A stretch of DNA of 64,000 bases from Shinella daejeonensis (GTDB taxonomy: Bacteria; Pseudomonadota; Alphaproteobacteria; Rhizobiales; Rhizobiaceae), in the NCBI RefSeq assembly GCF_024281235.1, contig NZ_JAHWXY010000001.1, positions 806,001-870,000 on the forward strand, read 5' to 3'. A model generated the notes under the pieces. The model was not told where the DNA came from. It did no database searches and was given only the letters and a program-made list of their open reading frames with translations. Position numbers and translations under genes: made by a program. Of this stretch, positions 25,410 through 43,130 are shown piece by piece; the stretch's first letter is position 1; each line of letters begins with the position of its first letter.

Positions 25410-26405
25410 TTACAGCTGGCGAACGACGATCTCTTCCTCGGAAGCGACGGCCAGCGGATTGCGCAGCGGCAGCCCGAAGCCTTCCGCACCGATCTCGAAG
25501 ACGTCGCCCGCTTCCGTACGGATCCCGTCGCCGAAAGACAACGTCGCCGTGCCGAACATATGGACATGCACATCGCCGGGCGCACGGAAAAGCCCGTATT
25601 TGAAATGGTGATACTCAAGATTGGCGAAGCTGTGCGACATGTTCGCCTCCCCCGATACGAAGGGTTTTTCCCACAGAAGCTTGCCGCCGCGCAGGATACG
25701 CGAGAAGCCGCGGATATCCTCCGGCGGCGCGCCGATACGGATTTCCGGACCGAAGCTCGCCTGCCGCAGCTTCGAATGGGCGAGATAGAGATAGTTGATC
25801 CGCTCCGTCACGTGATCGGAAAACTCGTTCGAAACGGCAAAGCCCACGCGGAAGGGCGTCCCGTCGTCGGCGATCACATAGATACCCGCCATTTCCGGTT
25901 CCTCGCCGCCGTCGAGCGCGAAGGAGGGCGAGGTGAGCGCCGCGCCGGGCGCGACGGCCTGCGTGCCGTTGCCCTTGTAGAACCACTCCGGCTGCACGCC
26001 CTTCTCACCGGCCGCCGGCTTGCCGTTTTCGAGGCCCATGCGGAACATCTTCATCGAATCGGTCAGCGTCTCCTCGGCCGCTTCCGTCGTCTTCTTGTGC
26101 ATGGAATCGCGCGTCGCCGCCGAGCCGAGATGGGTGAGCCCCGTGCCGGTGAGGTGCAGATGCGCGGGATCCGGATGGGTGATCGGCGCAAGCATCCGCC
26201 CCTCGCCGTAGGCGGCCTCAAGGTCCACGGCCTCGCCCAGCCCCTTCGCCTCGATCACCGCGGCGAGAGAGCGGCCGCTGTTCGCCGCCTCGAGCGCCAG
26301 CGCATGGACGCTTTGCGCGCCCTTCACCGCCCGGGCGGGCCCGCCCTCCTCGCGCATTGCTACGGTGATGGAGCCATCGGCATTGCGGATCTGCGATATC
26401 AGCAT
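25410..26405 (-). CDS. gguC: GguC/AraD1 family protein (FAH superfamily)
   Basis: The ATG at 26403-26405 gives 331 residues. The C-terminal half has the fumarylacetoacetate-hydrolase-like pattern with FAVSNEFSDHVTE, LRQASFGPEIRIG and GDVHVHMFGTATLSFGDG. GguC is the fourth gene of the Agrobacterium chvE-gguA-gguB-gguC operon. Related proteins have been proposed as 2-keto-3-deoxy-L-arabonate dehydratases. Here it lies between the transporter and the two arabonate-pathway enzymes, fitting the missing dehydratase step. Function is inferred. Confidence 0.85.
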   Translation of the reverse strand: MLISQIRNADGSITVAMREEGGPARAVKGAQSVHALALEAANSGRSLAAVIEAKGLGEAVDLEAAYGEGRMLAPITHPDPAHLHLTGTGLTHLGSAATRDSMHKKTTEAAEETLTDSMKMFRMGLENGKPAAGEKGVQPEWFYKGNGTQAVAPGAALTSPSFALDGGEEPEMAGIYVIADDGTPFRVGFAVSNEFSDHVTERINYLYLAHSKLRQASFGPEIRIGAPPEDIRGFSRILRGGKLLWEKPFVSGEANMSHSFANLEYHHFKYGLFRAPGDVHVHMFGTATLSFGDGIRTEAGDVFEIGAEGFGLPLRNPLAVASEEEIVVRQL

Positions 26406-26510
26406 GGTGTCGTCTTCCTTCCCGGACGCCGGCCCGCAGCCTGAGCGTCCCTTTACCCGGCGTCGCCGCCGTTCAACAGTCAATTGGTCGTGGGGACCGA
26501 CCGCTTCGGA

Positions 26511-31702: not shown

Positions 31703-32188
31703 ATGATGTTCGGCATGTCGGTCTTCGAATCGGTACTGGAACGGCTGAGGCAAGAGGCCGACGAAGGCATGTCGAAGGAGGGGACGGCGGCGGACAGCCG
31801 GGAACCCGCCGGCCGGCGCAGTCCTTCAGGCGGCTTTACCGGCCTTGGAACGGGAGCGCCCTTCGTCTCGGGACGGCAGGCGGATGCCGCCTATCGCGAG
31901 ATCGGGGAGCCGGCCACGCCCGCCCCTGCGCCCCCGCCCGAAGCGCCGCCACCGCATCTTCTGCGCATTGCGCCGGAAGAGATCGCGGCCGACCTTGCGC
32001 TGACGGGAAAGGAAACCGTCGAAGCCCTGCTGGCCCGCCGTCGCGCGTTTGCGCGCGACAACCATCCCGACCGCGCACCGGCGGCACTGCGGGCGAACGC
32101 CACCTTGCGCATGAAGATCGCCAACATGCTGATCGACGAAACCATCCGGCGAAGCGGACCGGGGAGCGGCGCGAAGGCCGAACGCTGA
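31703..32188 (+). CDS. J-domain-like protein
   Basis: About 161 residues. The first 85 are low-complexity and rich in Pro, Gly and Ala. The C-terminal 60 form a degenerate J domain with the HPD motif in FARDNHPDRAP and following helix RMKIANMLIDETIRR. J domains stimulate Hsp70 ATPase, so a DnaK partnership is inferred. Start choices are ATG at 31703, 31706 or 31715. It begins 15 nt after gbpR and could be cotranscribed with it. Confidence 0.75.
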   Translation: MMFGMSVFESVLERLRQEADEGMSKEGTAADSREPAGRRSPSGGFTGLGTGAPFVSGRQADAAYREIGEPATPAPAPPPEAPPPHLLRIAPEEIAADLALTGKETVEALLARRRAFARDNHPDRAPAALRANATLRMKIANMLIDETIRRSGPGSGAKAER

Positions 32189-32218: not shown

Positions 32219-32446
32219 TCAGGATTTCTCCTTGCTCTCCTCCTCCGGCTTCGCCACGCCGTCGGACGGCTTGTAGAACAGCAGCAGCTGGGCGAAGGCG
32301 TAGGCTGCGACGATCAGGAAGATCGTGCCCCAGGCCTGTTCGCCGTTGTAGAATTCGACCGCCGTCCAGCCGGAACAGATGCCGACAAGCAGCAGCCGCA
32401 CCCAGAGCGGACGATAAAACGGATGGTTGGGATCGATGAACTTCAT
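32219..32446 (-). CDS. Small two-span membrane protein, unknown function
   Basis: 75 residues beginning MKFIDPNHPFYRPLWVR, then two hydrophobic segments (LLLVGICSGWTAVEF and TIFLIVAAYAFAQLLLF) and a charged tail ending in EEESKEKS. Similar short DPxHPFY proteins are common in Rhizobiales. No function is known to me. It is convergent with the J-domain gene and 62 nt upstream of nothing else on its strand. Confidence 0.7.
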   Translation of the reverse strand: MKFIDPNHPFYRPLWVRLLLVGICSGWTAVEFYNGEQAWGTIFLIVAAYAFAQLLLFYKPSDGVAKPEEESKEKS

Positions 32447-32508: not shown

Positions 32509-33303
32509 TCATCCATCCAGCCGCGCAAGAAAGGCGGATAGTTCCTCTTCCGCGATGCCGACCAGATGCTGCCGGGCCGGATAGGCGCCCGAACGCACAT
32601 CCTCGACATACTCACGGAACGCGGCGATCCGCTCCTGCTGCAAGCGATCGTATTCGGCGGCGAAGTCGCGGTAGACCTTGGCATGGCGTGGATAATGGCC
32701 GCGATGCTCGCCGAGCACGTCCTCCGCGAAGAGATATTGCGCATCACATCCCGTTCCCGCGCCCATCGACAGCATCAGCAACGACGTTCGCGCGCTGATC
32801 GCCGAGGCGACCTCACCGGGAACGACCTCGATTTCCGCCGCGAAGGCTCCGGCCTCTTCCAGCGCCTTCACCTGCCGCCAGATTTCCAGCGCGCTCTCCG
32901 CCGTCTTGCCGACCGCGCGAAAGCCGCCGGTCCAGGTGGCCTTGGAAGGAATGAGACCGACATGGCCGCAGACGGGAATCCCCTCTTCCCGCAGCCGGCG
33001 CACCGTCGAAAGCCCGGCGACGCAATAGACGGCGTCGCCGCCGGCCTGCATCGCCCGGAACGCGCCGCGCAGATAATCGTCGGTCGTGACGAAATCGCCG
33101 TAATCCAGCCCCGGGAAGGCGAAGACCGAAGGAGCGGCCTCGCGGAAGGCCGGCCCGAGCAGCGACGGCGGCACGGAAACAAGATCGACACCCGCCCGTT
33201 CGGCAGCTTCCGCCGCCTCGAGGGTGACGACGCGCAGCATGGAAAGCTGGCGTTTGCCCTTGATCGCCAGCAGATCGGCGACAGTCGGCCGCTTGGTCTT
33301 CAT
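32509..33303 (-). CDS. PanB-fold protein lacking metal ligands
   Basis: A 264-residue TIM-barrel protein aligned by eye with ketopantoate hydroxymethyltransferase. Shared parts are IPVCGHVGLIPS (His114), AGVDLVSV, IEVVPGEVA (Glu159, matching catalytic Glu181 of E. coli), GAGTGCDAQ and YVEDVRSGAYPARQH. The three Mg2+ ligands of E. coli PanB are missing: Asp45 is Pro46, Asp84 is Gly65 and Glu114 is Val95; Lys112 is Tyr93. It is therefore unlikely to make ketopantoate. It starts 22 nt after the mocF-like gene and ends that operon, suggesting a role in demethylase products. Function unknown; automated pipelines would call it panB. Confidence 0.8.
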   Translation of the reverse strand: MKTKRPTVADLLAIKGKRQLSMLRVVTLEAAEAAERAGVDLVSVPPSLLGPAFREAAPSVFAFPGLDYGDFVTTDDYLRGAFRAMQAGGDAVYCVAGLSTVRRLREEGIPVCGHVGLIPSKATWTGGFRAVGKTAESALEIWRQVKALEEAGAFAAEIEVVPGEVASAISARTSLLMLSMGAGTGCDAQYLFAEDVLGEHRGHYPRHAKVYRDFAAEYDRLQQERIAAFREYVEDVRSGAYPARQHLVGIAEEELSAFLARLDG

Positions 33304-33325: not shown

Positions 33326-34564
33326 TCACGCGGCGAGCAGTTTCTTCAATTTCGTATCCGGCGAGGCGAGGTCCGCGGGATTGGCGCGCACGCCGGCGGC
33401 GATCAGCATTTCCGCCAGCCGGATATCGCGCGCCACCGCATTGCCCGGGCCGATGCCGCTTGCGGCGATCAGCCGTCCGTCGGCGGCGAGATGGAACAGG
33501 ATGAAGGCACCCTCCCCCATATCGCGGCGCACCGTTTGCGCCGCATCGTCCGCAAGGCCGGCGATCTGCAAGGTCAGGTCATATTGATCCGACCAGAACC
33601 ACGGCACCGCCGACGCCGGCTCGTCGCCCCCCAGCATGTTCGCTGCCGCGAGAATGCCCTGTTCCTGCGCATTGCGCCAGGATTCCAGCCGCACCCGACG
33701 GCCGCCGTAGAGCGGCAGCGGATAGGACGTGCAGTCGCCTGCGGCGAAGATATCCGGATCGGAGGTGCGAAGGTGGCCGTCGACGGCAATGCCGTTGTCG
33801 ACGGCAAGACCGGCCGCCGCCGCCAGTTCCGCATTGGGGATCGCCCCGATGCCGACGACGAGCAGGCTCGCCGGGACGACACGGCCGTCCGAAAGCCGCA
33901 CCCGGACTTCGCCGGGCGTTTCCTCGACGGCCGCGACCGTGGCGCCGCACAGGATCTCGACCCCTTCGGCGGCATGCCGCTCGGCGACGCGACCGGCGAT
34001 CTCCACCGGCACGCCGCGCGTCAGGATGCGCGGAAGTCCCTCAAGCAGCGTCACCGTCGCGCCCAGCCGGCGGGCGCTGGCCGCCAGTTCCAGGCCGATG
34101 AAGCCCCCGCCGAGAATGGCGACATGGCTGCCCCGGGAAAGATGGCCGCGGATGGCGACGGCATCGTCGTGGCTGCGCAGCGCCCGGATACGCCCGGCGG
34201 AAAAGGGCGCGCCGGGCAGTGCGCGCGGCCGTGCGCCGGTCGCCAGCAACAGCCGGTCGTAGGGAAAGGCCGCGCCATCCGAAAGCACGACACGCCGCCC
34301 GGCCCGGTCGATCGAGGCCACCGTACGGCCGCAGACGAGCGCGATGCCCGCCTCGCCGTAACGCTCCGCCTCGGCGACGAGTTTCGGCCCCGCGCCCGCG
34401 ACGAGCGCGTCCTTCGACAGCGGCGGGCGTTCGTAGGGAAGATGGGTTTCCGAGCCGATCAGCGTGATCGTCCCGTCGAACCCCCTGTCGCGCAGGGCGA
34501 AAGCCGCGCGTGCGCCGCATTCACCGGCGCCGACGATGACGAAATCCGTCATGGAAACCCTCAT
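33326..34564 (-). CDS. mocF: MocF-like ferredoxin reductase
   Basis: A 412-residue FAD/NAD(P)H oxidoreductase of the rubredoxin/ferredoxin-reductase type: N-terminal FVIVGAGECGARAAFALR (by parts), YERPPLSK, LLLATGARPRALPG, NAD-binding VAILGGGFIGLELAA, and DIFAAGDC. A C-terminal reductase domain follows. The ATG at 34564 overlaps the mocE stop by 4 nt (ATGA); a second ATG is at 34552. It would pass electrons from NAD(P)H to the adjacent Rieske ferredoxin, matching the MocD-MocE-MocF demethylase of rhizopine catabolism in Sinorhizobium meliloti L5-30. Confidence 0.82.
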   Translation of the reverse strand: MRVSMTDFVIVGAGECGARAAFALRDRGFDGTITLIGSETHLPYERPPLSKDALVAGAGPKLVAEAERYGEAGIALVCGRTVASIDRAGRRVVLSDGAAFPYDRLLLATGARPRALPGAPFSAGRIRALRSHDDAVAIRGHLSRGSHVAILGGGFIGLELAASARRLGATVTLLEGLPRILTRGVPVEIAGRVAERHAAEGVEILCGATVAAVEETPGEVRVRLSDGRVVPASLLVVGIGAIPNAELAAAAGLAVDNGIAVDGHLRTSDPDIFAAGDCTSYPLPLYGGRRVRLESWRNAQEQGILAAANMLGGDEPASAVPWFWSDQYDLTLQIAGLADDAAQTVRRDMGEGAFILFHLAADGRLIAASGIGPGNAVARDIRLAEMLIAAGVRANPADLASPDTKLKKLLAA

Positions 34565-34878
34565 GAAATCGAGATGAAGACCGTGCCGCTCTCGACCTTG
34601 ACGGGATAGGTCCTGAGATTGATGCAGACGGGCGCGCCCTTGGCTTCGCCGGTCTTGTAATCGAAGCGGCCGTTATGCTTGGGACATTCGATGATGTTGT
34701 CCATCACCAGCCCGTCGGCGAGATGGATCTTCTCGTGCGTGCAGAGCCCGTCGGTGGCGTGATAGGTGTCCTCCGGGCTGCGGTAGATCGCGAAGGTGCG
34801 TCCGTCGTGATCGAAACGGATCACGTCTTCCTCATCGATCTCCCCGGCGTCGCAAACCTCGATCCAGTTATCGCTCAT
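34561..34878 (-). CDS. mocE: MocE-like Rieske ferredoxin
   Basis: About 105 residues from ATG 34878, which has GGAGG at ideal spacing (an ATG at 34884 is too close to it). The Rieske [2Fe-2S] motif is complete: CTH at one end and CPKH 17 residues on, with GRFDYKTGEAKGAP after it. It resembles bacterial Rieske ferredoxins that feed oxygenases, and lies between the reductase and oxygenase genes in the order mocD-mocE-mocF. An electron-carrier role is well supported; the rhizopine link is contextual. Confidence 0.85.
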   Translation of the reverse strand: MSDNWIEVCDAGEIDEEDVIRFDHDGRTFAIYRSPEDTYHATDGLCTHEKIHLADGLVMDNIIECPKHNGRFDYKTGEAKGAPVCINLRTYPVKVESGTVFISIS

Positions 34879-34916
34879 GGTCATCTCCTCCAGAGTGTTT
34901 CCGTTGCGCCGGCCGG

Positions 34917-36008
34917 TTATTCGGCCGCCTGCGCGACCGGGTCGGCGTGAAAGTCTTCCTTGTAGGGGCGCGCGGTCGGCGGCAGTTCGCGCTTGAGGAA
35001 ATAGTCCTCATTGCGAAGCTGGCGCAGGAAGGCCGGAAGCATTTCCCTGTAGCCGTTCCAGATCGACGGATTGGGCGCGGGCAGGTCATGCCGGATCATG
35101 GCATGCAGCCGCGGCAGCGCGTGATAGGGCACCATGGGGAACATGTGATGCTCCACATGATAATTCATGTTCCAGTAGATGAAGCGGCTGACCGGATTCA
35201 TAAGGACGGTGCGGCTGTTCAGCCGGTGGTCGACGACGTTGTCGGCAAGCCCTCCATGCTGCAACAGGCCGGTCATCACGTGATGCCAGGCGCCATAGAG
35301 GCGCGGCAGGCCGATCAGCATGGCCGGCAGGATCGATCCCATGAAGAAACAGAGCGCGATCGTCGCGGCATAGATGGCCAGCCAGACGCGGGCGATACGG
35401 ATCGCCTTCGGCCATTCGGATTCCGGCACGAAGGTCTTTTCCGCCGCGCTCATGACACCGGCCGCGTTGCGAAGCATGTCGACCATCGCATACCAGGCAT
35501 CGAGGATGCCGAAGAAATTGAGCGCGAGGCGCGCCAGATCCGGCGGCCGCATGACCGCGATCTCCGGGTCGCGGCCGACGATGACCGTATCGGTGTGATG
35601 GCGGGTATGGCTCCAGCGCCAGGTCACCGGATTGCGCATGATCATGAAGCAGGCGATCTGATAGACGACATTGTTCATCCACATCGTCCTGAAAGCCGTG
35701 CCATGGCCGCATTCATGCCAGCGGGAATCGGACGCCGAGCCGTAGAGCACGCCGTAGACGAGGAAGAAGGGCACCGCCCACCAGCTTCCCCACAACCAGA
35801 CGCCGAGCCCTCCCGAGACGACCATGGCACCGAGCCAGATCACGGTATCGCGAATCGCCGGCCCGTCGGCGCGCTGCATCAGCGCCTTCATCTCCTTGCG
35901 CGCGACATCCGTATGATACCATTCGGCGGCGGCAAGACCGCTTGCAACCGATGCCTCGGCATCCCGGCCGAGAAGGCTGTAGTCCCGTTTCGAAGGCGTC
36001 ATCGCCAT
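34917..36008 (-). CDS. mocD: MocD-like membrane di-iron oxygenase
   Basis: The ATG at 36006-36008 behind GGAGGATG gives 363 residues. Membrane di-iron histidine boxes are clear: HECGH, HTRHHTDT and HVEHHMF, with hydrophobic hairpins between. These define the fatty-acid desaturase/alkane hydroxylase superfamily, to which MocD belongs. In rhizopine catabolism MocD with MocE and MocF is needed to demethylate 3-O-methyl-scyllo-inosamine. The linked Rieske ferredoxin, reductase and inositol genes favour an O-demethylase here over a lipid desaturase, but substrate is inferred. First gene of its operon, divergent from a LacI-type regulator. Confidence 0.8.
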   Translation of the reverse strand: MAMTPSKRDYSLLGRDAEASVASGLAAAEWYHTDVARKEMKALMQRADGPAIRDTVIWLGAMVVSGGLGVWLWGSWWAVPFFLVYGVLYGSASDSRWHECGHGTAFRTMWMNNVVYQIACFMIMRNPVTWRWSHTRHHTDTVIVGRDPEIAVMRPPDLARLALNFFGILDAWYAMVDMLRNAAGVMSAAEKTFVPESEWPKAIRIARVWLAIYAATIALCFFMGSILPAMLIGLPRLYGAWHHVMTGLLQHGGLADNVVDHRLNSRTVLMNPVSRFIYWNMNYHVEHHMFPMVPYHALPRLHAMIRHDLPAPNPSIWNGYREMLPAFLRQLRNEDYFLKRELPPTARPYKEDFHADPVAQAAE

Positions 36009-36102
36009 GTCATCCTCCTCCTTGGCACGACGGCCCGCAAGCCGCATGCCTCACTCGTTGCAAGGATGATAGCCTTCCCGCTTGCGCGCCTCAATCCAGC
36101 CG

Positions 36103-36172: not shown

Positions 36173-37204
36173 ATGGCCTCAAGGCCCACCATTGCCGATC
36201 TCGCCCGGGCCGCAGGCGTCAGCGTGGCGACCGTCGACCGGGTCCTGAACGGCCGTCATCGCGTCCGCGAGGAGACCGCGCGCCGCGTCTATGACGCCGC
36301 CAACGCGATCGGCTATCACGCCATAGGCCTCCTGCGCCAACGGGTCTTCGAGGATCTGCCGCAGTACCGGCTGGGCTTCTGCTTCCAGCGGCCGGGCCAG
36401 GCCTTCTACCAGAATTTCGCCCGCGAGGTGGAGGCCGCCTGCAACGCCTTCACCGCGGCGCGGATCGTCCCCCAGATCGACTTCATCCCCACCCAGACGC
36501 CGGCCGCCATGGCGGAAATGCTGCGCGGCCTCGGCCTGCGAAACCAGGCGCTGGCGGTCGTCGCACCCGATTATCCCGGCACCACCACCATGGTGGAGGA
36601 CCTGAAAAACCGGGGAATACCCGTCTTCTGCCTGCTGTCCGACTTCGCCATCGACGTCCGCCAGGGCTATATCGGCCTCAACAATCTGAAGGTCGGCCGC
36701 ACGGCCGCCTGGATGATCGCCAGAGGCGCGAAGCGGCCGGGCAAGGTGGCGATCTTCGTCGGCAGTCACCGGTTCCACGGCCACGAATTGCGCGAGATCG
36801 GCTTCCGCTCCTTTTTCCGGGAGAAGGGTCCGGGTTTCGAAGTGCTGGACACATTGGTCAATCTGGACACCAGCGAGATCACCCATGAGGCGACGGCGAA
36901 CCTTCTGGCGCAGCATCCTGATCTGGTCGGCCTCTATGTCGCCGGCGGCGGCATGGAAGGCGCCATATCGGCGGTGCGGGAAGAGGGCTTTGCCGGGCGA
37001 ATCCAGCTCGTCGTCAACGAACTGACAGCGGAATCGCGCGCGGGCCTTGCCGAAGACATCGCGACCATGGTCATTCACACACCGCTTCCCGCGCTCTGCC
37101 GCGAACTCGTCGCGCTGATGGTGGCCGCCATCGAAAAAGGCGATGGCGCGGTCGCCGGCCAGACCTTTCTGCCCTTCGACATCTTCACGCCCGAGAATAT
37201 CTGA
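36173..37204 (+). CDS. LacI-family regulator of the moc-like genes
   Basis: A 343-residue protein with a normal LacI DNA-binding head (IADLARAAGVSVATVDRVLNGRHRV, given by its parts IADLARAAGVS and VATVDRVLNG) and a periplasmic-binding-protein-like effector domain. The GFCFQRPGQAFYQNF start of that domain and the binding-pocket spacing resemble sugar/inositol sensors. It is divergent from mocDEF and upstream of the MocC-like gene. The known moc locus of S. meliloti L5-30 uses MocR of the GntR family, so control here appears rewired. Ligand identity (rhizopine, inosose or inositol) is inferred from neighbours. Confidence 0.85.
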   Translation: MASRPTIADLARAAGVSVATVDRVLNGRHRVREETARRVYDAANAIGYHAIGLLRQRVFEDLPQYRLGFCFQRPGQAFYQNFAREVEAACNAFTAARIVPQIDFIPTQTPAAMAEMLRGLGLRNQALAVVAPDYPGTTTMVEDLKNRGIPVFCLLSDFAIDVRQGYIGLNNLKVGRTAAWMIARGAKRPGKVAIFVGSHRFHGHELREIGFRSFFREKGPGFEVLDTLVNLDTSEITHEATANLLAQHPDLVGLYVAGGGMEGAISAVREEGFAGRIQLVVNELTAESRAGLAEDIATMVIHTPLPALCRELVALMVAAIEKGDGAVAGQTFLPFDIFTPENI

Positions 37205-37360: not shown

Positions 37361-38173
37361 ATGCCGTCCCTGACTTTCGCCCTCAACCATATGACCGCGC
37401 CGGCGCTGACGCTGGACGCCTTCTTCGCCCTTTCCGTATCGCTGGGCATCAGGGCCGTCGAGATCCGCAACGATCTTGCCGGAAACGCCATCCTTGACGG
37501 CACCACGCCGGAGGCCGTGGCCGCGCTGGCGGAACGCCACGGCGTGACGATCATCTCGATCAATGCGCTCCAGCGTTTCAACGAATGGTCGCCCGCCCGC
37601 GCCGGGGAGGCCGGGGCGCTGATCGATTATGCCGCCGCCTGCGGCGCCCACGCCCTCGTGCTCGTTCCGAAGAACGACGGGACGGGGCAGGCCGACGGCG
37701 AACGGCAGGCAAATCTGCGCGAAGCGCTCACCGCCCTGAAGCCGATGCTCGACGCCGCCGGCCTGATCGGCCTGGTCGAGCCGCTCGGCTTCGAGATCTG
37801 CTCGCTGCGCTCCAAGCGTGAGGCCGTGGAGGCGATCCAGGCCATCGGCGGCGAGGAGACCTTCCGTCTCGTCCACGACACGTTCCACCATCACCTTGCC
37901 GGCGAACAGGCGCTGTTTCCCGAATTCACCGGTCTGGTCCATATTTCGGGCGTCGAAGACCCGGCAATCGCCGTTTCCGACATGCTCGACGACCACCGCG
38001 TGCTGGTCGGCCCCGCAGACCGGCTGGCGAACATCGACCAGATCAGGGCGCTCCGCACGGCGGGCTATGACGGCCCCCTGTCCTTCGAGCCGTTCTCCCC
38101 GGCCGTCCACGCCGCGATCGATCCCGCAGCCGCGATCACCGAAAGCATCGGCCATATCCGTGCGGCCCTGTGA
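37361..38173 (+). CDS. MocC/IolI-like sugar isomerase (TIM barrel)
   Basis: A 270-residue AP-endonuclease-2-type TIM barrel. It opens LTFALNHMTAPALTLDAFF, then GIRAVEIRNDL, NALQRFN, VEPLGFEI and VHDTFHHHLAGE, carrying the expected Glu, Asp and His metal ligands. The NHMT start and EIRNDL motif are characteristic of IolI (2-keto-myo-inositol isomerase) and of MocC from rhizopine loci. It probably isomerises or dehydrates an inosose. It is followed directly by a strong terminator, so it forms a unit with the LacI-family gene. Confidence 0.8.
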   Translation: MPSLTFALNHMTAPALTLDAFFALSVSLGIRAVEIRNDLAGNAILDGTTPEAVAALAERHGVTIISINALQRFNEWSPARAGEAGALIDYAAACGAHALVLVPKNDGTGQADGERQANLREALTALKPMLDAAGLIGLVEPLGFEICSLRSKREAVEAIQAIGGEETFRLVHDTFHHHLAGEQALFPEFTGLVHISGVEDPAIAVSDMLDDHRVLVGPADRLANIDQIRALRTAGYDGPLSFEPFSPAVHAAIDPAAAITESIGHIRAAL

Positions 38174-38286: not shown

Positions 38287-38420
38287 GTAAATAGAAAAAA
38301 TCGGTCTTTTTATTCTGTCTTCGTTCCACGCCTCCGGGGAGGAGCAGGGACAGGACATCGAAAGACCGGCATCCGGATCCGTTTGTGGCGCCCCGGACGC
38401 CGTATGAGGAGGAGAACGAC

Positions 38421-39350
38421 ATGAAGAAAATGCTTATGGGCGCCGCGCTTGCCGCCATGATGTCCACGGCCGCCCATGCCGAGACGATCGGCGTTTCGAT
38501 GGCCCTGTTCGACGACAACTTCCTGACCGTCCTGCGCGGCGGCATGTCCGAATATGCCGAAACGCTCGATGGCGTCACATTGCAGATCGAGGACGCCCAG
38601 AACGACGTCGCCAAGCAGCAGAGCCAGATCCAGAACTTCATCGCTTCCGGCGTCGACGCCATCATCGTCAATCCGGTCGACACCGACGCCACGACCGCCC
38701 TGTCCAAGGCCGCCACCGAAGCCGGCATTCCGCTGGTCTATGTCAACCGCGAGCCGATCAACATCGACGACCTGCCGGAAAAGCAGGCTTTCGTCGCCTC
38801 CAACGAAAAGGAATCCGGCACGCTCCAGACGCAGGAAGTCTGCCGCCTGCTGGAAGGCAATGGCAAGGTCGTGGTCATGATGGGCGAACTGTCCAACCAG
38901 GCCGCCCGCGTGCGCACCCAGGATATCCACGACGTCCTCGCCACGGATGAATGCAAGGGTCTTGAGATCGTCGAGGAACAGACCGCAAACTGGCAGCGTA
39001 CGCAGGGCCAGGACCTGATGACCAACTGGCTCTCCGCCGGACTGGAATTCGACGCGGTGATCTCCAACAACGACGAGATGGCCATCGGCGCGGTCCAGGC
39101 CCTGAAGGCCGCCGGACGCACGATGGACAGCGTCGTCATCGCCGGCATCGACGCCACCCAGGACGCGCTTGCCGCCATGGCCGCAGGCGACCTCGATGTC
39201 ACGGTGTTCCAGGATGCCGCCGGCCAGGGCAAGGGATCGGTCGACACCGCCCTCAAGCTCGCCCGCGGCGAAGCGGTGGAAACGCGCGTCTATATTCCCT
39301 TCCAGCTCGTGACTCCGGCCAATATCGCCGACTTCCAGGCCAAGAACTGA
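38421..39350 (+). CDS. Inositol/rhizopine-type periplasmic binding protein
   Basis: The ATG at 38421 follows GGAGGAGAACGAC and gives 309 residues with a signal peptide ending AAHA|ETIGV. The mature protein is a class I (ribose-type) binding protein: VSMALFDDNFLTVLRGG, DAQNDVAKQQSQIQNF, NPVDTDATT and SNNDEMAIGAVQALK. Family members with this start include MocB and the inositol-binding proteins IbpA/IntA. Substrate preference (myo-inositol, scyllo-inosamine or its methyl ether) is inferred from the idhA gene in the same operon and the mocDEF genes upstream. Confidence 0.87.
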   Translation: MKKMLMGAALAAMMSTAAHAETIGVSMALFDDNFLTVLRGGMSEYAETLDGVTLQIEDAQNDVAKQQSQIQNFIASGVDAIIVNPVDTDATTALSKAATEAGIPLVYVNREPINIDDLPEKQAFVASNEKESGTLQTQEVCRLLEGNGKVVVMMGELSNQAARVRTQDIHDVLATDECKGLEIVEEQTANWQRTQGQDLMTNWLSAGLEFDAVISNNDEMAIGAVQALKAAGRTMDSVVIAGIDATQDALAAMAAGDLDVTVFQDAAGQGKGSVDTALKLARGEAVETRVYIPFQLVTPANIADFQAKN

Positions 39351-39402: not shown

Positions 39403-39441
39403 ACGTTTCGTTTCAACTTGCTTCGGAGGGAGGAGGAGACG

Positions 39442-40980
39442 ATGGTCAGCCCGACCACCATGGCCGCGATCCGCACGAGCGGCGCTGCCCCCAACGCCGA
39501 ATATCTCCTGACTGCGGAAGGAATCCGCAAGGAGTTCCCGGGCGTCGTGGCGCTCGACGATGTCCAGTTCCGGCTGAAGCGCGGCACCGTGCATGCCCTG
39601 ATGGGCGAGAACGGTGCGGGAAAATCCACGCTGATGAAGATACTTGCCGGCATCTACACGCCGGACAAGGGCGACATCCGCCTCAAGGGCCAGGCGATCC
39701 GACTCGATTCGCCGCTCGACGCGCTCGAAAACGGTATCGCCATGATCCATCAGGAACTGAACCTGATGCCCTTCATGACGGTCGCCGAGAACATCTGGAT
39801 CCGCCGGGAGCCGAAGAACCGCTTCGGCTTCGTCGACCACGCGGAAATGCGCCGGCTCACCGCCGACCTCTTCGCACGGCTGAAGATCGCCATCGACCCC
39901 GAGACCCAGGTGCGCGACCTCTCCGTCGCCAACCGTCAGATGGTCGAGATCGCCAAGGCCGTCTCCTATGAATCCGACGTGCTGATCATGGACGAACCCA
40001 CCTCCGCGCTCACCGAACGGGAGGTCGCGCATCTCTTCGAGATCATTCGGGACCTGCGCCGCCAGGGCATCGGCATCGTCTACATCACCCACAAGATGAA
40101 CGAACTGTTCGAGATCGCCGACGAGTTCTCGGTGTTCCGCGACGGCAAGTATATCGGCACCCATGCCTCGACGGACGTGACCCGCGACGACATCATCCGC
40201 ATGATGGTCGGCCGCGAGATCACCCAGATGTTTCCGAAGGAGGACGTGCCGATCGGCGATGTCGTGCTGTCGGTGGAGAACCTCACGCTCGACGGCGTCT
40301 TCCACGACGTTTCCTTCGAGGTGCGGGCCGGCGAAATCCTCGGCGTGGCCGGCCTCGTCGGCTCCGGCCGCTCGAATGTCGCCGAAACGCTCTTCGGCGT
40401 GACGCCCGCCAGCTCCGGGACCATCCGCATCCACGGCAAGCCCACCGTCATCGACAGTCCCAATACCGCGATCCGCAACCGCATGGCGTTTCTCACGGAG
40501 GACCGCAAGGAGACCGGCTGTCTCCTGATCCTCGACATTCTGGACAACATGCAGGTCGCCGTCTTGCAGGACAAGTTCGTCAGGAACGGTTTCGTTTCGG
40601 AAAAGGAACTGATGCGGGTCTGCGAGGACATGAGCCGCCGGTTGCGCGTCAAGACGCCGAACATGCACGAACGCATCGAGAACCTGTCGGGCGGCAACCA
40701 GCAGAAAGTGCTGATCGGCCGCTGGCTGCTCACCGATCCGCGCATCCTGATTCTCGACGAGCCGACGCGGGGGATCGATGTCGGCGCCAAGGCGGAAATT
40801 CACCGCCTCGTCACGGAACTCGCCCGCAACGGCGTCGCCGTCATCATGATCTCCTCGGAAATGCCCGAGGTGCTCGGCATGAGCGACCGCATCATGGTCA
40901 TGCACGAAGGTCACGTCACCGGCTTCCTCGACCGTTCGGAAGCGACCCAGATCAAGGTCATGGAACTGGCTGCCCAGTAG
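39442..40980 (+). CDS. Inositol-type ABC transporter ATPase
   Basis: The ATG at 39442 follows GGAGGAGACG and gives 512 residues. It has tandem ABC domains: [21 protein letters not shown] in the first; [23 protein letters not shown] and [11 protein letters not shown] in the second. It is the IatA/RbsA type and energises the importer formed with the flanking genes. Confidence 0.93.
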
Positions 40981-41017
40981 GAACCGGGGCCGCAAGACGG
41001 CTGTAATGGAGGTAAAC

Positions 41018-42037
41018 ATGAGCACGAATTCCGCCGCGCAGGCCCAGGTCGCCGCGCAGAAAACGGCCCGCCGGCTACCGCCGGAAATCAGTATCTTTCT
41101 CGTCCTCGTCGGTATCGCGCTGATCTACGAGATCCTCGGCTGGATCTTCATCGGCCAGAGCTTTCTGCTCAATCCCCAGCGCCTGACGATCATGATCCTC
41201 CAGGTCTCCGTCATCGGCATCATCGCCGTCGGCGTGACGCAGGTGATCATCACCGGCGGCATCGACCTGTCCTCCGGTTCGATGGTCGGCATGACGGCAA
41301 TGATCTCGGCGAGTTTCGCGCAGGCCTCCACCTGGCCGCGCGCGCTCTATCCGTCCCTCACCGACCTGCCCTTCATCGTGCCGGTAGCCGTCGGCATCGG
41401 CATCGGGCTATTGGCCGGCCTCATCAACGGCCAGCTCATCGCCCGGACGAAGATCCCGCCCTTCATCGCCACCCTCGGCATGATGGTGTCGGCGCGCGGC
41501 GTCTCCAAATGGTATACGAAGGGCCAGCCTGTCTCTGGTCTCTCCGAACAGTTCACGTTCATCGGCACCGGCGTCTGGCCCGTCGTCATCTTCCTCGTCG
41601 TGGCGCTCATCTTCCACATCGCCCTGCGCTACACCCGCTACGGCAAGTTTACCTATGCGATCGGCGCGAACGTCCAGGCCGCCCGCGTCTCCGGCATCAA
41701 TGTCGAATCCCATCTGGTGAAGGTCTACGCCATCGCCGGTGCGCTTGCCGGCCTTGCCGGCGTCGTCACCGCCGCCCGCGCCCAGACGGCGCAGGCCGGC
41801 ATGGGCGTGATGTACGAACTGGACGCCATCGCCGCGACGGTCATCGGCGGCACCTCGCTGGCCGGCGGCGTCGGCCGCATCACCGGCACGGTCATCGGCA
41901 CGATCATCCTCGGCGTCATGACATCGGGCTTCACCTTCCTGCGTGTCGATGCGTATTATCAGGAAATCGTCAAGGGACTGATCATCGTTGCCGCCGTCGT
42001 CGTCGACGTCTACCGGCAGAAGAAACGCAAGACCTGA
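41018..42037 (+). CDS. Inositol-type ABC transporter permease
   Basis: The ATG at 41018 is preceded by GGAGG, giving 339 residues; an ATG at 41006 overlaps that site. It is a polytopic permease with ITGGIDLSSGSMVGM, IPPFIATLGMMVSARG and GANVQAARVSGIN, matching the IatP/RbsC family. It completes the binding protein-ATPase-permease set. Confidence 0.93.
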   Translation: MSTNSAAQAQVAAQKTARRLPPEISIFLVLVGIALIYEILGWIFIGQSFLLNPQRLTIMILQVSVIGIIAVGVTQVIITGGIDLSSGSMVGMTAMISASFAQASTWPRALYPSLTDLPFIVPVAVGIGIGLLAGLINGQLIARTKIPPFIATLGMMVSARGVSKWYTKGQPVSGLSEQFTFIGTGVWPVVIFLVVALIFHIALRYTRYGKFTYAIGANVQAARVSGINVESHLVKVYAIAGALAGLAGVVTAARAQTAQAGMGVMYELDAIAATVIGGTSLAGGVGRITGTVIGTIILGVMTSGFTFLRVDAYYQEIVKGLIIVAAVVVDVYRQKKRKT

Positions 42038-42137
42038 CGCCTGTTCCGCGAGGCTCCGCGGCGCCTTTGCGGGGCGGGCGCCACGCGCCCCGCACTTCCC
42101 GGCAGGCTCCGCCTGCGTCACCACAGAGAGAATGAAG

Positions 42138-43130
42138 ATGACTGTGAGATTTGGTCTTCTCGGCGCAGGCCGCATCGGCAAGGTCCATGCGAAAGCCGTC
42201 ACCGGCAATCCCGACGCGACGCTGGTCGCCGTCGCCGACGCGTTTCCCGCCGCCGCCGAGGCAATTGCCGCGCAATATGGCTGCGCGGTCCGCACCATCG
42301 AGGAAATCGAGGCAGCCGGCGACATCGACGCCGTCGTCATCTGCACGCCCACCGACACCCATGCCGACCTGATCGAACGGTTCTCCCGCGCCGGCAAGGC
42401 GATCTTCTGCGAAAAGCCGATCGATCTCGACGTCGACCGCGTCAAGGCCTGCATGAAGGTGGTCGAGGAGACCGGCGGCAAGCTGATGGTCGGCTTCAAC
42501 CGCCGCTTCGACCCGCATTTCATGGCCGTTCGCAAGGCCATCGACGACGGCCGCATCGGCGATGTCGAGATGGTGACGATCACCTCGCGCGATCCCGGCG
42601 CCCCGCCGGTGGACTACATCAAGCGCTCCGGCGGCATCTTCCGCGACATGACGATCCACGATTTCGACATGGCCCGCTTCCTGCTCGGCGAGGAGGTCGT
42701 CTCGGTCTCGGCGACGGCCGCCGTGCTGGTCGACCCGGAAATCGGCAAGGCCGGCGACTATGACAGCGTCTCCGTCATCCTCCAGACGAAGTCCGGCAAG
42801 CAGGCGATCATCTCGAATTCGCGGCGCGCCACCTACGGCTACGACCAGCGCATCGAGGTGCATGGCTCCATGGGGATGGTGGCGGCCGAAAACCAGCGCC
42901 CCGTCTCCATCGAGGTCGCCAATGGCGATGGCTATACCCGTCCGCCGCTGCACGACTTCTTCATGACCCGCTACACCGAAGCCTATGCCAACGAGATTGC
43001 AAGCTTCATCGCGGCCATCGAGAAGGGCGCCGCCATCTCGCCATCCGGCGCAGACGGCCTTGCTGCCCTCGCCCTTGCCGATGCGGCCGTGAAATCGGTC
43101 GAGGAAAAGCGCCAGATCGCCGTCGCCTGA
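42138..43130 (+). CDS. idhA: myo-Inositol 2-dehydrogenase
   Basis: ATGs at 42132 and 42138; the second gives 330 residues starting MTVRFGLLGAGRIGKVHAK, as in S. meliloti IdhA. It is a Gfo/Idh/MocA protein with the EKP motif (FCEKPIDLD), KRSGGIFRDMTIHDFDM (catalytic Asp and His) and an NRRFDP loop. It oxidises myo-inositol, and probably scyllo-inositol derivatives, to inososes with NAD. Rhizopine breakdown requires IdhA as well as moc functions, which fits its place after the importer. Last gene of the operon, followed by a terminator. Confidence 0.93.
   Translation: MTVRFGLLGAGRIGKVHAKAVTGNPDATLVAVADAFPAAAEAIAAQYGCAVRTIEEIEAAGDIDAVVICTPTDTHADLIERFSRAGKAIFCEKPIDLDVDRVKACMKVVEETGGKLMVGFNRRFDPHFMAVRKAIDDGRIGDVEMVTITSRDPGAPPVDYIKRSGGIFRDMTIHDFDMARFLLGEEVVSVSATAAVLVDPEIGKAGDYDSVSVILQTKSGKQAIISNSRRATYGYDQRIEVHGSMGMVAAENQRPVSIEVANGDGYTRPPLHDFFMTRYTEAYANEIASFIAAIEKGAAISPSGADGLAALALADAAVKSVEEKRQIAVA

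Follow-up and report, generated by a model that had tools for sequence, protein, structure and literature searches.

At positions 32509-33303 of the window (the whole 64,000-nucleotide stretch of Shinella daejeonensis DNA analyzed here), the minus strand shows an ORF of 264 amino acid residues which, according to residue alignment, Pfam and an AlphaFold2 model, encodes a PanB-fold protein without the Mg2+ and keto-acid residues of PanB. We named this protein PANBL. Its gene is the last of an operon on the minus strand and lies 22 nt downstream of a mocF-like gene (33326-34564), which encodes a FAD-dependent ferredoxin reductase with Pyr_redox_2 and Reductase_C domains. The mocF-like gene overlaps by 4 nt a mocE-like gene (34561-34884) encoding a Rieske 2Fe-2S ferredoxin (TIGR02377, 179.6 bits against a cut-off of 136.15), and 32 nt separate the start of mocE from the end of a mocD-like gene (34917-36047), whose product is a membrane oxygenase of the fatty acid desaturase family (PF00487, 4.6e-36) and a presumed O-demethylase. 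Neither purU nor folD adjoins PANBL in this operon. On the plus strand, a LacI-type regulator (36173-37204, PF00356 and Peripla_BP_4) is divergent from the operon and is followed by genes for a mocC-like sugar/cyclitol isomerase-type TIM barrel (37361-38173, PF01261), a mocB-like sugar ABC substrate-binding protein (38385-39350, PF13407), a sugar-type ABC transporter ATPase (39418-40980, PF00005 in two stretches), a sugar-type ABC transporter permease (41006-42037, PF02653) and a mocA-like Gfo/Idh/MocA dehydrogenase (41988-43130, PF01408 and PF22725), whose true start is probably further in.

The rhizopine demethylase locus mocDEF, which PMC10107442 cites from Bahar 1998 and Rossbach 1994 and for which its available text names mocDEF, mocR, mocBA and mocC, shows the same order of mocD, mocE and mocF, and mocA-, mocB- and mocC-like genes lie nearby in the window as well. 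The window differs in its divergent LacI regulator and full ABC transporter, and no MocR is present there. The terms panB, hydroxymethyltransferase, purU, deformylase and folate do not occur in the main text of PMC10107442. Two small ORFs downstream of PANBL, at 32219-32446 and 31703-32188, have no Pfam match and are conserved at 65-78% and 49-62%, respectively, in 15 of 16 ortholog loci, the exception being locus L057. Further away, at 25410-26483, a 357-residue protein that we take to be GguC-like, and that gave no Pfam match at E 0.001, is encoded between an aldehyde dehydrogenase and a gguAB-chvE-type transporter.

A phmmer alignment with E. coli PanB (1m3u) pairs Asp84 with Gly65, Lys112 with Tyr93 and Glu114 with Val95 of PANBL, while His136 and Glu181 are retained as His114 and Glu159. 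Asp45 is beyond the local alignment, and its pairing with Pro46 was taken from a 134-row family alignment, in which this column shows Asp in 19 of 20 control PanB rows and one gap. Asp45, Asp84 and Glu114 of the E. coli enzyme are its Mg2+ ligands and Lys112 a residue used with the keto acid; the window protein has lost all four and keeps the His136 and Glu181 pair. The AlphaFold2 model (mean pLDDT of 92.4) predicts the PanB TIM-barrel, and its top PDB matches are ketopantoate hydroxymethyltransferases (3vav with Z 26.8 over 214 residues and rmsd 2.8; 1m3u with Z 25.1). The barrel fold is also common to the PEP mutase/isocitrate lyase superfamily, with 1s2w at Z 15.6 (197 residues, rmsd 4.2) and 2-methylisocitrate lyases at Z about 15. 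An earlier note on this DNA had described the ORF as closing a mocD-mocE-mocF-like series, had aligned these residues by eye and had suggested a structural comparison with PanB. Coordinates and spacer agree with that description, the four replacements (Pro46 through the family alignment) and the retained CGH-type histidine and Glu159 were reproduced, and the predicted structure bears out the fold.

The window protein matches the Pfam Pantoate_transf model with 142.3 bits (cut-off 28.7) and stays below both NCBIfam PanB models (128.6 bits against 272, and 108 against 207.55), as do all seven further PANBL proteins scanned. Three PF02548 matches were found in the source genome, with 342 bits (C11:538700), 133 bits (window PANBL) and 114 bits (contig C35). 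The first, with 360.2 and 324 bits, clears both NCBIfam PanB models, and the gene next to it exceeds the panC cut-off, so that the second, canonical panB with panC for which the earlier note had advised a search is present elsewhere in the genome. The match on contig C35 (L034:8235-9017) is a second PANBL, 46% identical to that of the window, and adjoins a PF04116 hydroxylase. An ordinary panB duplicate was ruled out by the residues, the NCBIfam cut-offs, a separate clade and the gene context. In all 11 annotated records read (L186-L196), PANBL is named 3-methyl-2-oxobutanoate hydroxymethyltransferase, and eight carry a pantothenate GO term, which is the misannotation that had been anticipated.

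Relatives of PANBL were collected by profile searches of overlapping genome samples at three taxonomic levels, scoring the best 6 or 8 candidates per genome, and extra PANBL copies may therefore be missed. The class search (385 genomes) gave 21 genomes with at least 25 places at 257 bits or more, the next place having 166.6; the order search (297 genomes) gave 30 genomes with at least 51 places at 289 bits or more, the next having 184; and the phylum search (398 genomes) gave 18 genomes with places at 332 bits or more, all inside the class, the next having 164. Long open frames in these searches were taken as stop-to-stop stretches rather than fusions. In a 72-row tree, a branch with 100/100 support splits the 29 PANBL rows off from canonical PanB and the other PanB paralogs; the control L170 groups with other PanB paralogs and not with the main canonical set. 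PANBL is a PanB-fold family distinct from PanB and, in this sampling, alphaproteobacterial. A viral scan confirmed no PANBL relative, and the 12 records from phage collections all have less than 60% identity to PANBL (the best 32.7% over 91% of the query). Among the open-access PMC matches listed, as judged by title and start of abstract, none describes a PANBL member or an enzyme condensing formaldehyde with tetrahydrofolate (THF).

Residue conservation was counted in 90 PANBL rows (88 loci, one tandem copy and the window) and 20 control PanB rows. The loss of the metal ligands and Lys112 holds across the whole clade: the Asp45 column shows Pro in 48 rows and Asp in three, with Phe, Gly and Ala next; the Asp84 column shows Gly in 74, Ser in nine, Ala in six and Asp in one, being lost in 89; the Lys112 column shows Tyr in 78, Met in 11, His in one and no Lys; and the Glu114 column shows Ala in 45, Ser in 21, Gln in 10 and others, with Glu in none. 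In the controls, Asp84, Lys112 and Glu114 are each present in 20 of 20 rows, and Asp45 in 19 with one gap. His136 and Glu181 are each found in all 90 PANBL rows. Furthermore, the family has residues of its own: Glu157 (90 of 90, Val in 20 of 20 controls), His207 (90 of 90, Phe in 19 of 20 controls), Phe192 (90), Arg225 (89) and Trp124 (87). PANBL may be metal-independent, or Glu157, His207 and other invariant residues could build a new metal site.

Orthologs of the window PANBL were found in 14 of 20 congeners, with 85-88% identity, and in two other genera, with 84%; in all 16 of these fetched loci mocD, mocE, mocF and PANBL are consecutive. The residue pattern exceeds chance, because it recurs throughout one clade and the linkage recurs in 16 of 16 fetched orthologs. 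Linkage as a by-product of shared synteny was considered and rejected: in L057 conservation is limited to the operon and the transporter side, and PANBL is still behind mocF. The flanks of congeners are conserved too; their loci alone therefore prove little, and a wider sample clustered at 70% identity was used, in which 88 loci (nine, the 16 orthologs, one S. meliloti record, 22 and 40) fall into 28 lineages. The last 40 loci come from 47 order-list places outside genomes G000, G057 and G130, of which seven were not counted; phylum-only places, the short duplicate stretches L096-L125 and the window locus were left out.

Of the 88 loci, 73 have an oxygenase within 5 kb of PANBL, and these represent 24 of the 28 lineages, in comparison with none of 20 control panB loci (Fisher p = 1.3e-9 for lineages against unclustered controls), and in 71 of the 73 loci the nearest one is on the PANBL strand. 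By overlapping types, 56 loci show a MocD-type oxygenase, 14 a PF04116 hydroxylase, five PhyH, three a Rieske oxygenase (two of these weak, 64-65 bits) and one TauD. MocE was found in 58 and MocF in 35 of the 88 loci within 5 kb, and two control loci show a partial reductase match. The oxygenase models were derived from PANBL neighbors, those of TauD and Rieske from one sequence each, and because of this possible bias a Pfam scan of the nearest genes was run, with five genes at one locus per lineage and six genes at each of the 20 controls. Among the 140 genes near PANBL, FA_desaturase is the commonest family (16), with FA_hydroxylase at six and PhyH at four, while pantoate ligase leads near control panB (8 of 120 genes); the three oxygenase families are absent from the 25 families listed near control panB, where single matches could be missed. 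No oxygenase was found within 5 kb in 15 loci and four lineages, including six of nine loci of one lineage. The 15 loci are L040, L061, L062, L063, L066, L068, L073, L074, L075, L077, L078, L127, L149, L153 and L155; in L062, L153 and L155 a PF04116 hydroxylase lies 7.4 to 9.5 kb from PANBL, and in L061 and L066 PANBL is less than 1 kb from the contig start. PANBL thus mostly sits in oxidative demethylase-type operons. The expectation that the clade would always be linked to mocDEF holds in the 16 fetched orthologs, but it is too narrow for the family, which pairs with several unrelated oxygenases. In this part the reading of the earlier note has to be widened; PanB fold, residue loss, mocDEF linkage in orthologs and mislabeling stand.

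Other common neighbor clusters are the sugar-type ABC ATPase (15 lineages), permease (13), binding protein (13) and LacI regulator (13), with MocD in 15, and the frequency of sugar ABC transporter and LacI genes suggests sugar-like substrates. Since the sugar ABC transporter genes are about as constant as the MocD-type oxygenase alone, the substrate class is an alternative common factor. MocA-type dehydrogenases and sugar isomerases form clusters of at most eight and five lineages. When the oxygenases were placed on the PANBL tree as a five-state label that includes "none detected", 16 changes were counted, an approximate number as long branches meet in this tree (L071 and L072). In the L071 operon, furthermore, three oxygenases (two desaturases and one PF04116 hydroxylase) accompany a single PANBL. 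These changes and this mixture make the one-carbon product of the oxygenase the likely common factor. Genome G221 (1.6 Mb, AT-rich; L070, L071 and L072) has four PANBL, two of which are in tandem and face two PhyH genes. In alphaproteobacterial genomes of 1.4 Mb with 30-32% GC (L064, L065 and L067), PANBL adjoins a MocD-type desaturase.

A third PanB-like set of 22 rows is mixed in its metal-site residues. Twelve of them (L082-L093) keep Asp45, Ser46 and Lys112, have Asp84 replaced by Cys (seven), Ser (four) or Ala (one) and Glu114 by Gln, and all show Glu157; of the remaining ten, nine keep the PanB residues and one is a gapped fragment. PhyH was found in nine of the 12 fetched L082-L093 regions. 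L088, which exceeds the PanB cut-off (297.6 against 272 bits), has PhyH, a PF04116 hydroxylase, TRAP transporter genes and a GntR regulator as neighbors. A partly dismantled PanB site therefore also goes with oxygenase operons. In the tree, the long branch separates L082-L093 from PANBL and leaves them with canonical PanB, and the Glu157 that they have in common with PANBL may therefore be old or convergent.

Folate genes accompany some PANBL operons. A purU gene lies within 5 kb in seven of 88 loci (three lineages) and within 8 kb in eight, both counts including L146 with its weak 45-bit fragment, and folD lies within 5 kb in three; neither was found at the 20 control panB loci. In L135, purU overlaps the end of PANBL by 4 nt. 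At an assumed rate of 2%, three or more of 28 lineages would be reached with a probability of 0.018, and the folate-gene trait requires five changes for five rows on the PANBL tree. In 33 PANBL genomes searched there are 28 purU copies over the cut-off, seven of them within 8 kb of PANBL (positions compared by hand), and 20 of these genomes have no purU over the cut-off; PurU is therefore no general part of the system. From at least 252 records at 1e-60 or better, 11 annotated plasmid regions were picked for annotation and spread. PANBL directly follows mocF in ten of them and mocE in one, purU comes next in four and folD follows purU in one, absences being soft since the plasmid gene table is incomplete. 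The plasmid of Agrobacterium tumefaciens HAMBI 105 shows the order mocD-mocE-mocF-PANBL-purU-folD. Phyllobacterium zundukense Tri-48 and Rhizobium indicum have mocB-like, MocR-type regulator, mocD, mocE, mocF, PANBL and purU genes, and S. meliloti RCAM1115 likewise has mocDEF-PANBL-purU with a MocR-type regulator. The annotation gives L186, L189 and L190 each a regulator of the PLP-dependent aminotransferase family, and GntR and aminotransferase domains were confirmed in L186 and L189. By gene content alone, the loci of P. zundukense Tri-48, R. indicum and S. meliloti RCAM1115 look like true rhizopine-type loci; Phyllobacterium Tri-38 is among the moc loci in the available text of PMC10107442. 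The mocD-like gene of S. meliloti RCAM1115 (L186:7209-8305) runs across two reading frames and is missing from the gene table.

We infer that formaldehyde is the substrate of PANBL and folate its acceptor: PANBL probably handles formaldehyde released by the partner oxygenases and possibly loads it onto folate. The oxidation of methyl ethers by hydroxylation, with release of formaldehyde, is established chemistry, and the oxygenase (here MocD with MocE and MocF) would in this manner hydroxylate an imported compound of sugar or cyclitol type at its O-methyl group. PANBL would then condense formaldehyde with THF to 5,10-methylene-THF, which corresponds to the PanB reaction minus its keto-acid partner; it would have no keto-acid (enolising) half and would keep the one-carbon half with the His136 and Glu181 pair. 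The methylene-THF may be used directly, or FolD may oxidize it and PurU may then release formate by cleavage. According to the available text of PMC7770189, the metal of PanB promotes conversion of the keto acid to its enol. A protein that lost the keto-acid half and kept the one-carbon half would be expected to lack the metal ligands and Lys112 and to retain His136 and Glu181. Oxygenases, although their fold varies, accompany PANBL more constantly than any other partner, and the product common to methyl-acting oxygenases would be formaldehyde, while purU and folD in some operons point to folate as the acceptor. In the glyA-soxBDAG-purU operons of PMC3691474 (available text), purU adjoins a sarcosine oxidase that yields methylene-THF.

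The available text of PMC7073904 gives an estimate by which spontaneous condensation of formaldehyde with THF is far too slow for growth, and weighs PanB itself as a side-catalyst. Formaldehyde-dependent growth of E. coli without panB and ltaE was unchanged, and canonical PanB therefore provides no such side activity there; according to the same text there was no sign of a condensing enzyme in E. coli, though the authors could not exclude one. The slow spontaneous reaction and the one-carbon and folate context led us to propose catalysis by PANBL. That PANBL is a one-carbon enzyme of oxidative demethylase modules which condenses formaldehyde with THF could about equally prove right or wrong. 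The earlier suggestion that it acts on formaldehyde or a keto product can be narrowed to favor formaldehyde, because the oxygenase is the most constant neighbor (24 of 28 lineages), isomerases and MocA-type dehydrogenases are less so, and purU or folD are present in some operons.

The main rival, which we nevertheless regard as unlikely, is a hydroxymethyl lyase: PANBL would speed the breakdown of R-O-CH2OH or R-N-CH2OH to R-OH and formaldehyde, or transfer the group directly to THF. Such a role agrees with the constant oxygenase partner and with the loss of the enolisation residues, and it has precedents in the available text of PMC12508155, where MgdL, acting after the dioxygenase MgdH, accelerates the fragmentation of N-(hydroxymethyl)guanidine and PAL in peptide amidation is also named. 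Methylguanidine demethylation is similar in that an oxygenase is followed by a dedicated second enzyme for the hydroxymethyl step; by description, MgdL differs from PANBL in being annotated as a hypothetical protein and in needing Asp49 and Arg51 (PMC12508155, available text, in which PanB and ketopantoate do not occur). One lyase would, however, need a broad substrate range to serve oxygenase folds, transporters and isomerases that vary among loci, and MgdL is reported as narrow in the same source; purU and folD would also be unexplained unless THF were the acceptor. An aldolase that is metal-independent or has its metal re-sited, adding formaldehyde to a keto compound of the pathway or cleaving it off, would fit the PanB fold and the retained His and Glu, and MocA-type dehydrogenases and isomerases could supply keto compounds. 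The residues with which PanB binds and enolises its keto acid are nevertheless lost clade-wide, and the enzymes that could form keto compounds accompany PANBL less constantly than the oxygenase does, so that we consider this quite unlikely.

It is improbable that PANBL is a non-catalytic partner, either a sensor or scaffold binding formaldehyde or folate or a stabilizer of the oxygenase complex. The known catalytic residues are lost and an oxygenase is frequently adjacent, but invariant His136 and Glu181 and (nearly) invariant Glu157, His207 and Arg225 point to an active site, and a shared docking role is less likely with partners of unrelated folds. Most improbable is a diverged pantothenate enzyme, still a ketopantoate hydroxymethyltransferase and close to mocDEF by chance. 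The label in 11 annotated records and the Pfam Pantoate_transf match would speak for it; against it are the scores below both NCBIfam PanB cut-offs, the lost metal and Lys residues, the canonical panB already beside panC in the genome, an oxygenase linkage far above that of panB controls, and panC itself, which is commonest near control panB (8 of 120) and outside the 25 commonest Pfam families near PANBL.

In comparison with PanB (1m3u, 3vav and 1oy0), PANBL shares the fold, His136, Glu181, several glycines and, as proposed, a reaction between a one-carbon unit and folate. It differs in the absence of Asp45, Ser46, Asp84, Lys112 and Glu114 from nearly all of the 90 rows, in the gain of Glu157, Phe192, His207 and Arg225, in its own clade and in its location, mostly in demethylase-type operons and not with panC. 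Fae and Gfa are not known to share the fold of PANBL, and the likeness drawn here is one of proposed function. According to the available text of a 2022 review (PMC8879981), the first step of the THF formaldehyde pathway is spontaneous, and Fae and Gfa serve the tetrahydromethanopterin and glutathione routes, where they speed an otherwise spontaneous condensation of formaldehyde with the cofactor; the same is proposed for PANBL, with THF as the different cofactor. The glyA-soxBDAG-purU operons also show a demethylating enzyme followed by purU, with methylene-THF as product when THF is present (PMC3691474, available text), but there the sarcosine oxidase performs the folate step itself, whereas PANBL would be a separate enzyme for several oxygenase types.

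In its full form, our reading is that PANBL may be a dedicated THF-dependent formaldehyde-activating enzyme that arose when PanB lost its keto-acid site. It would serve oxygenases of several unrelated folds and belong to rhizopine-type demethylation as a component not yet described; PurU and FolD, where present, would carry the methyl-ether carbon on to formate. This is put forward tentatively, as somewhat more apt to fail than to hold. PANBL is a concrete candidate for the enzyme that loads formaldehyde onto tetrahydrofolate. If this is true, it would settle where the methyl carbon goes in moc-type catabolism, correct an annotation error that assigns these proteins to pantothenate synthesis, and supply a part for engineered methanol or formaldehyde use. 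The finding is larger than the earlier note saw, as it concerns a whole PanB-fold family whose members are labeled as pantothenate enzymes in the records read.
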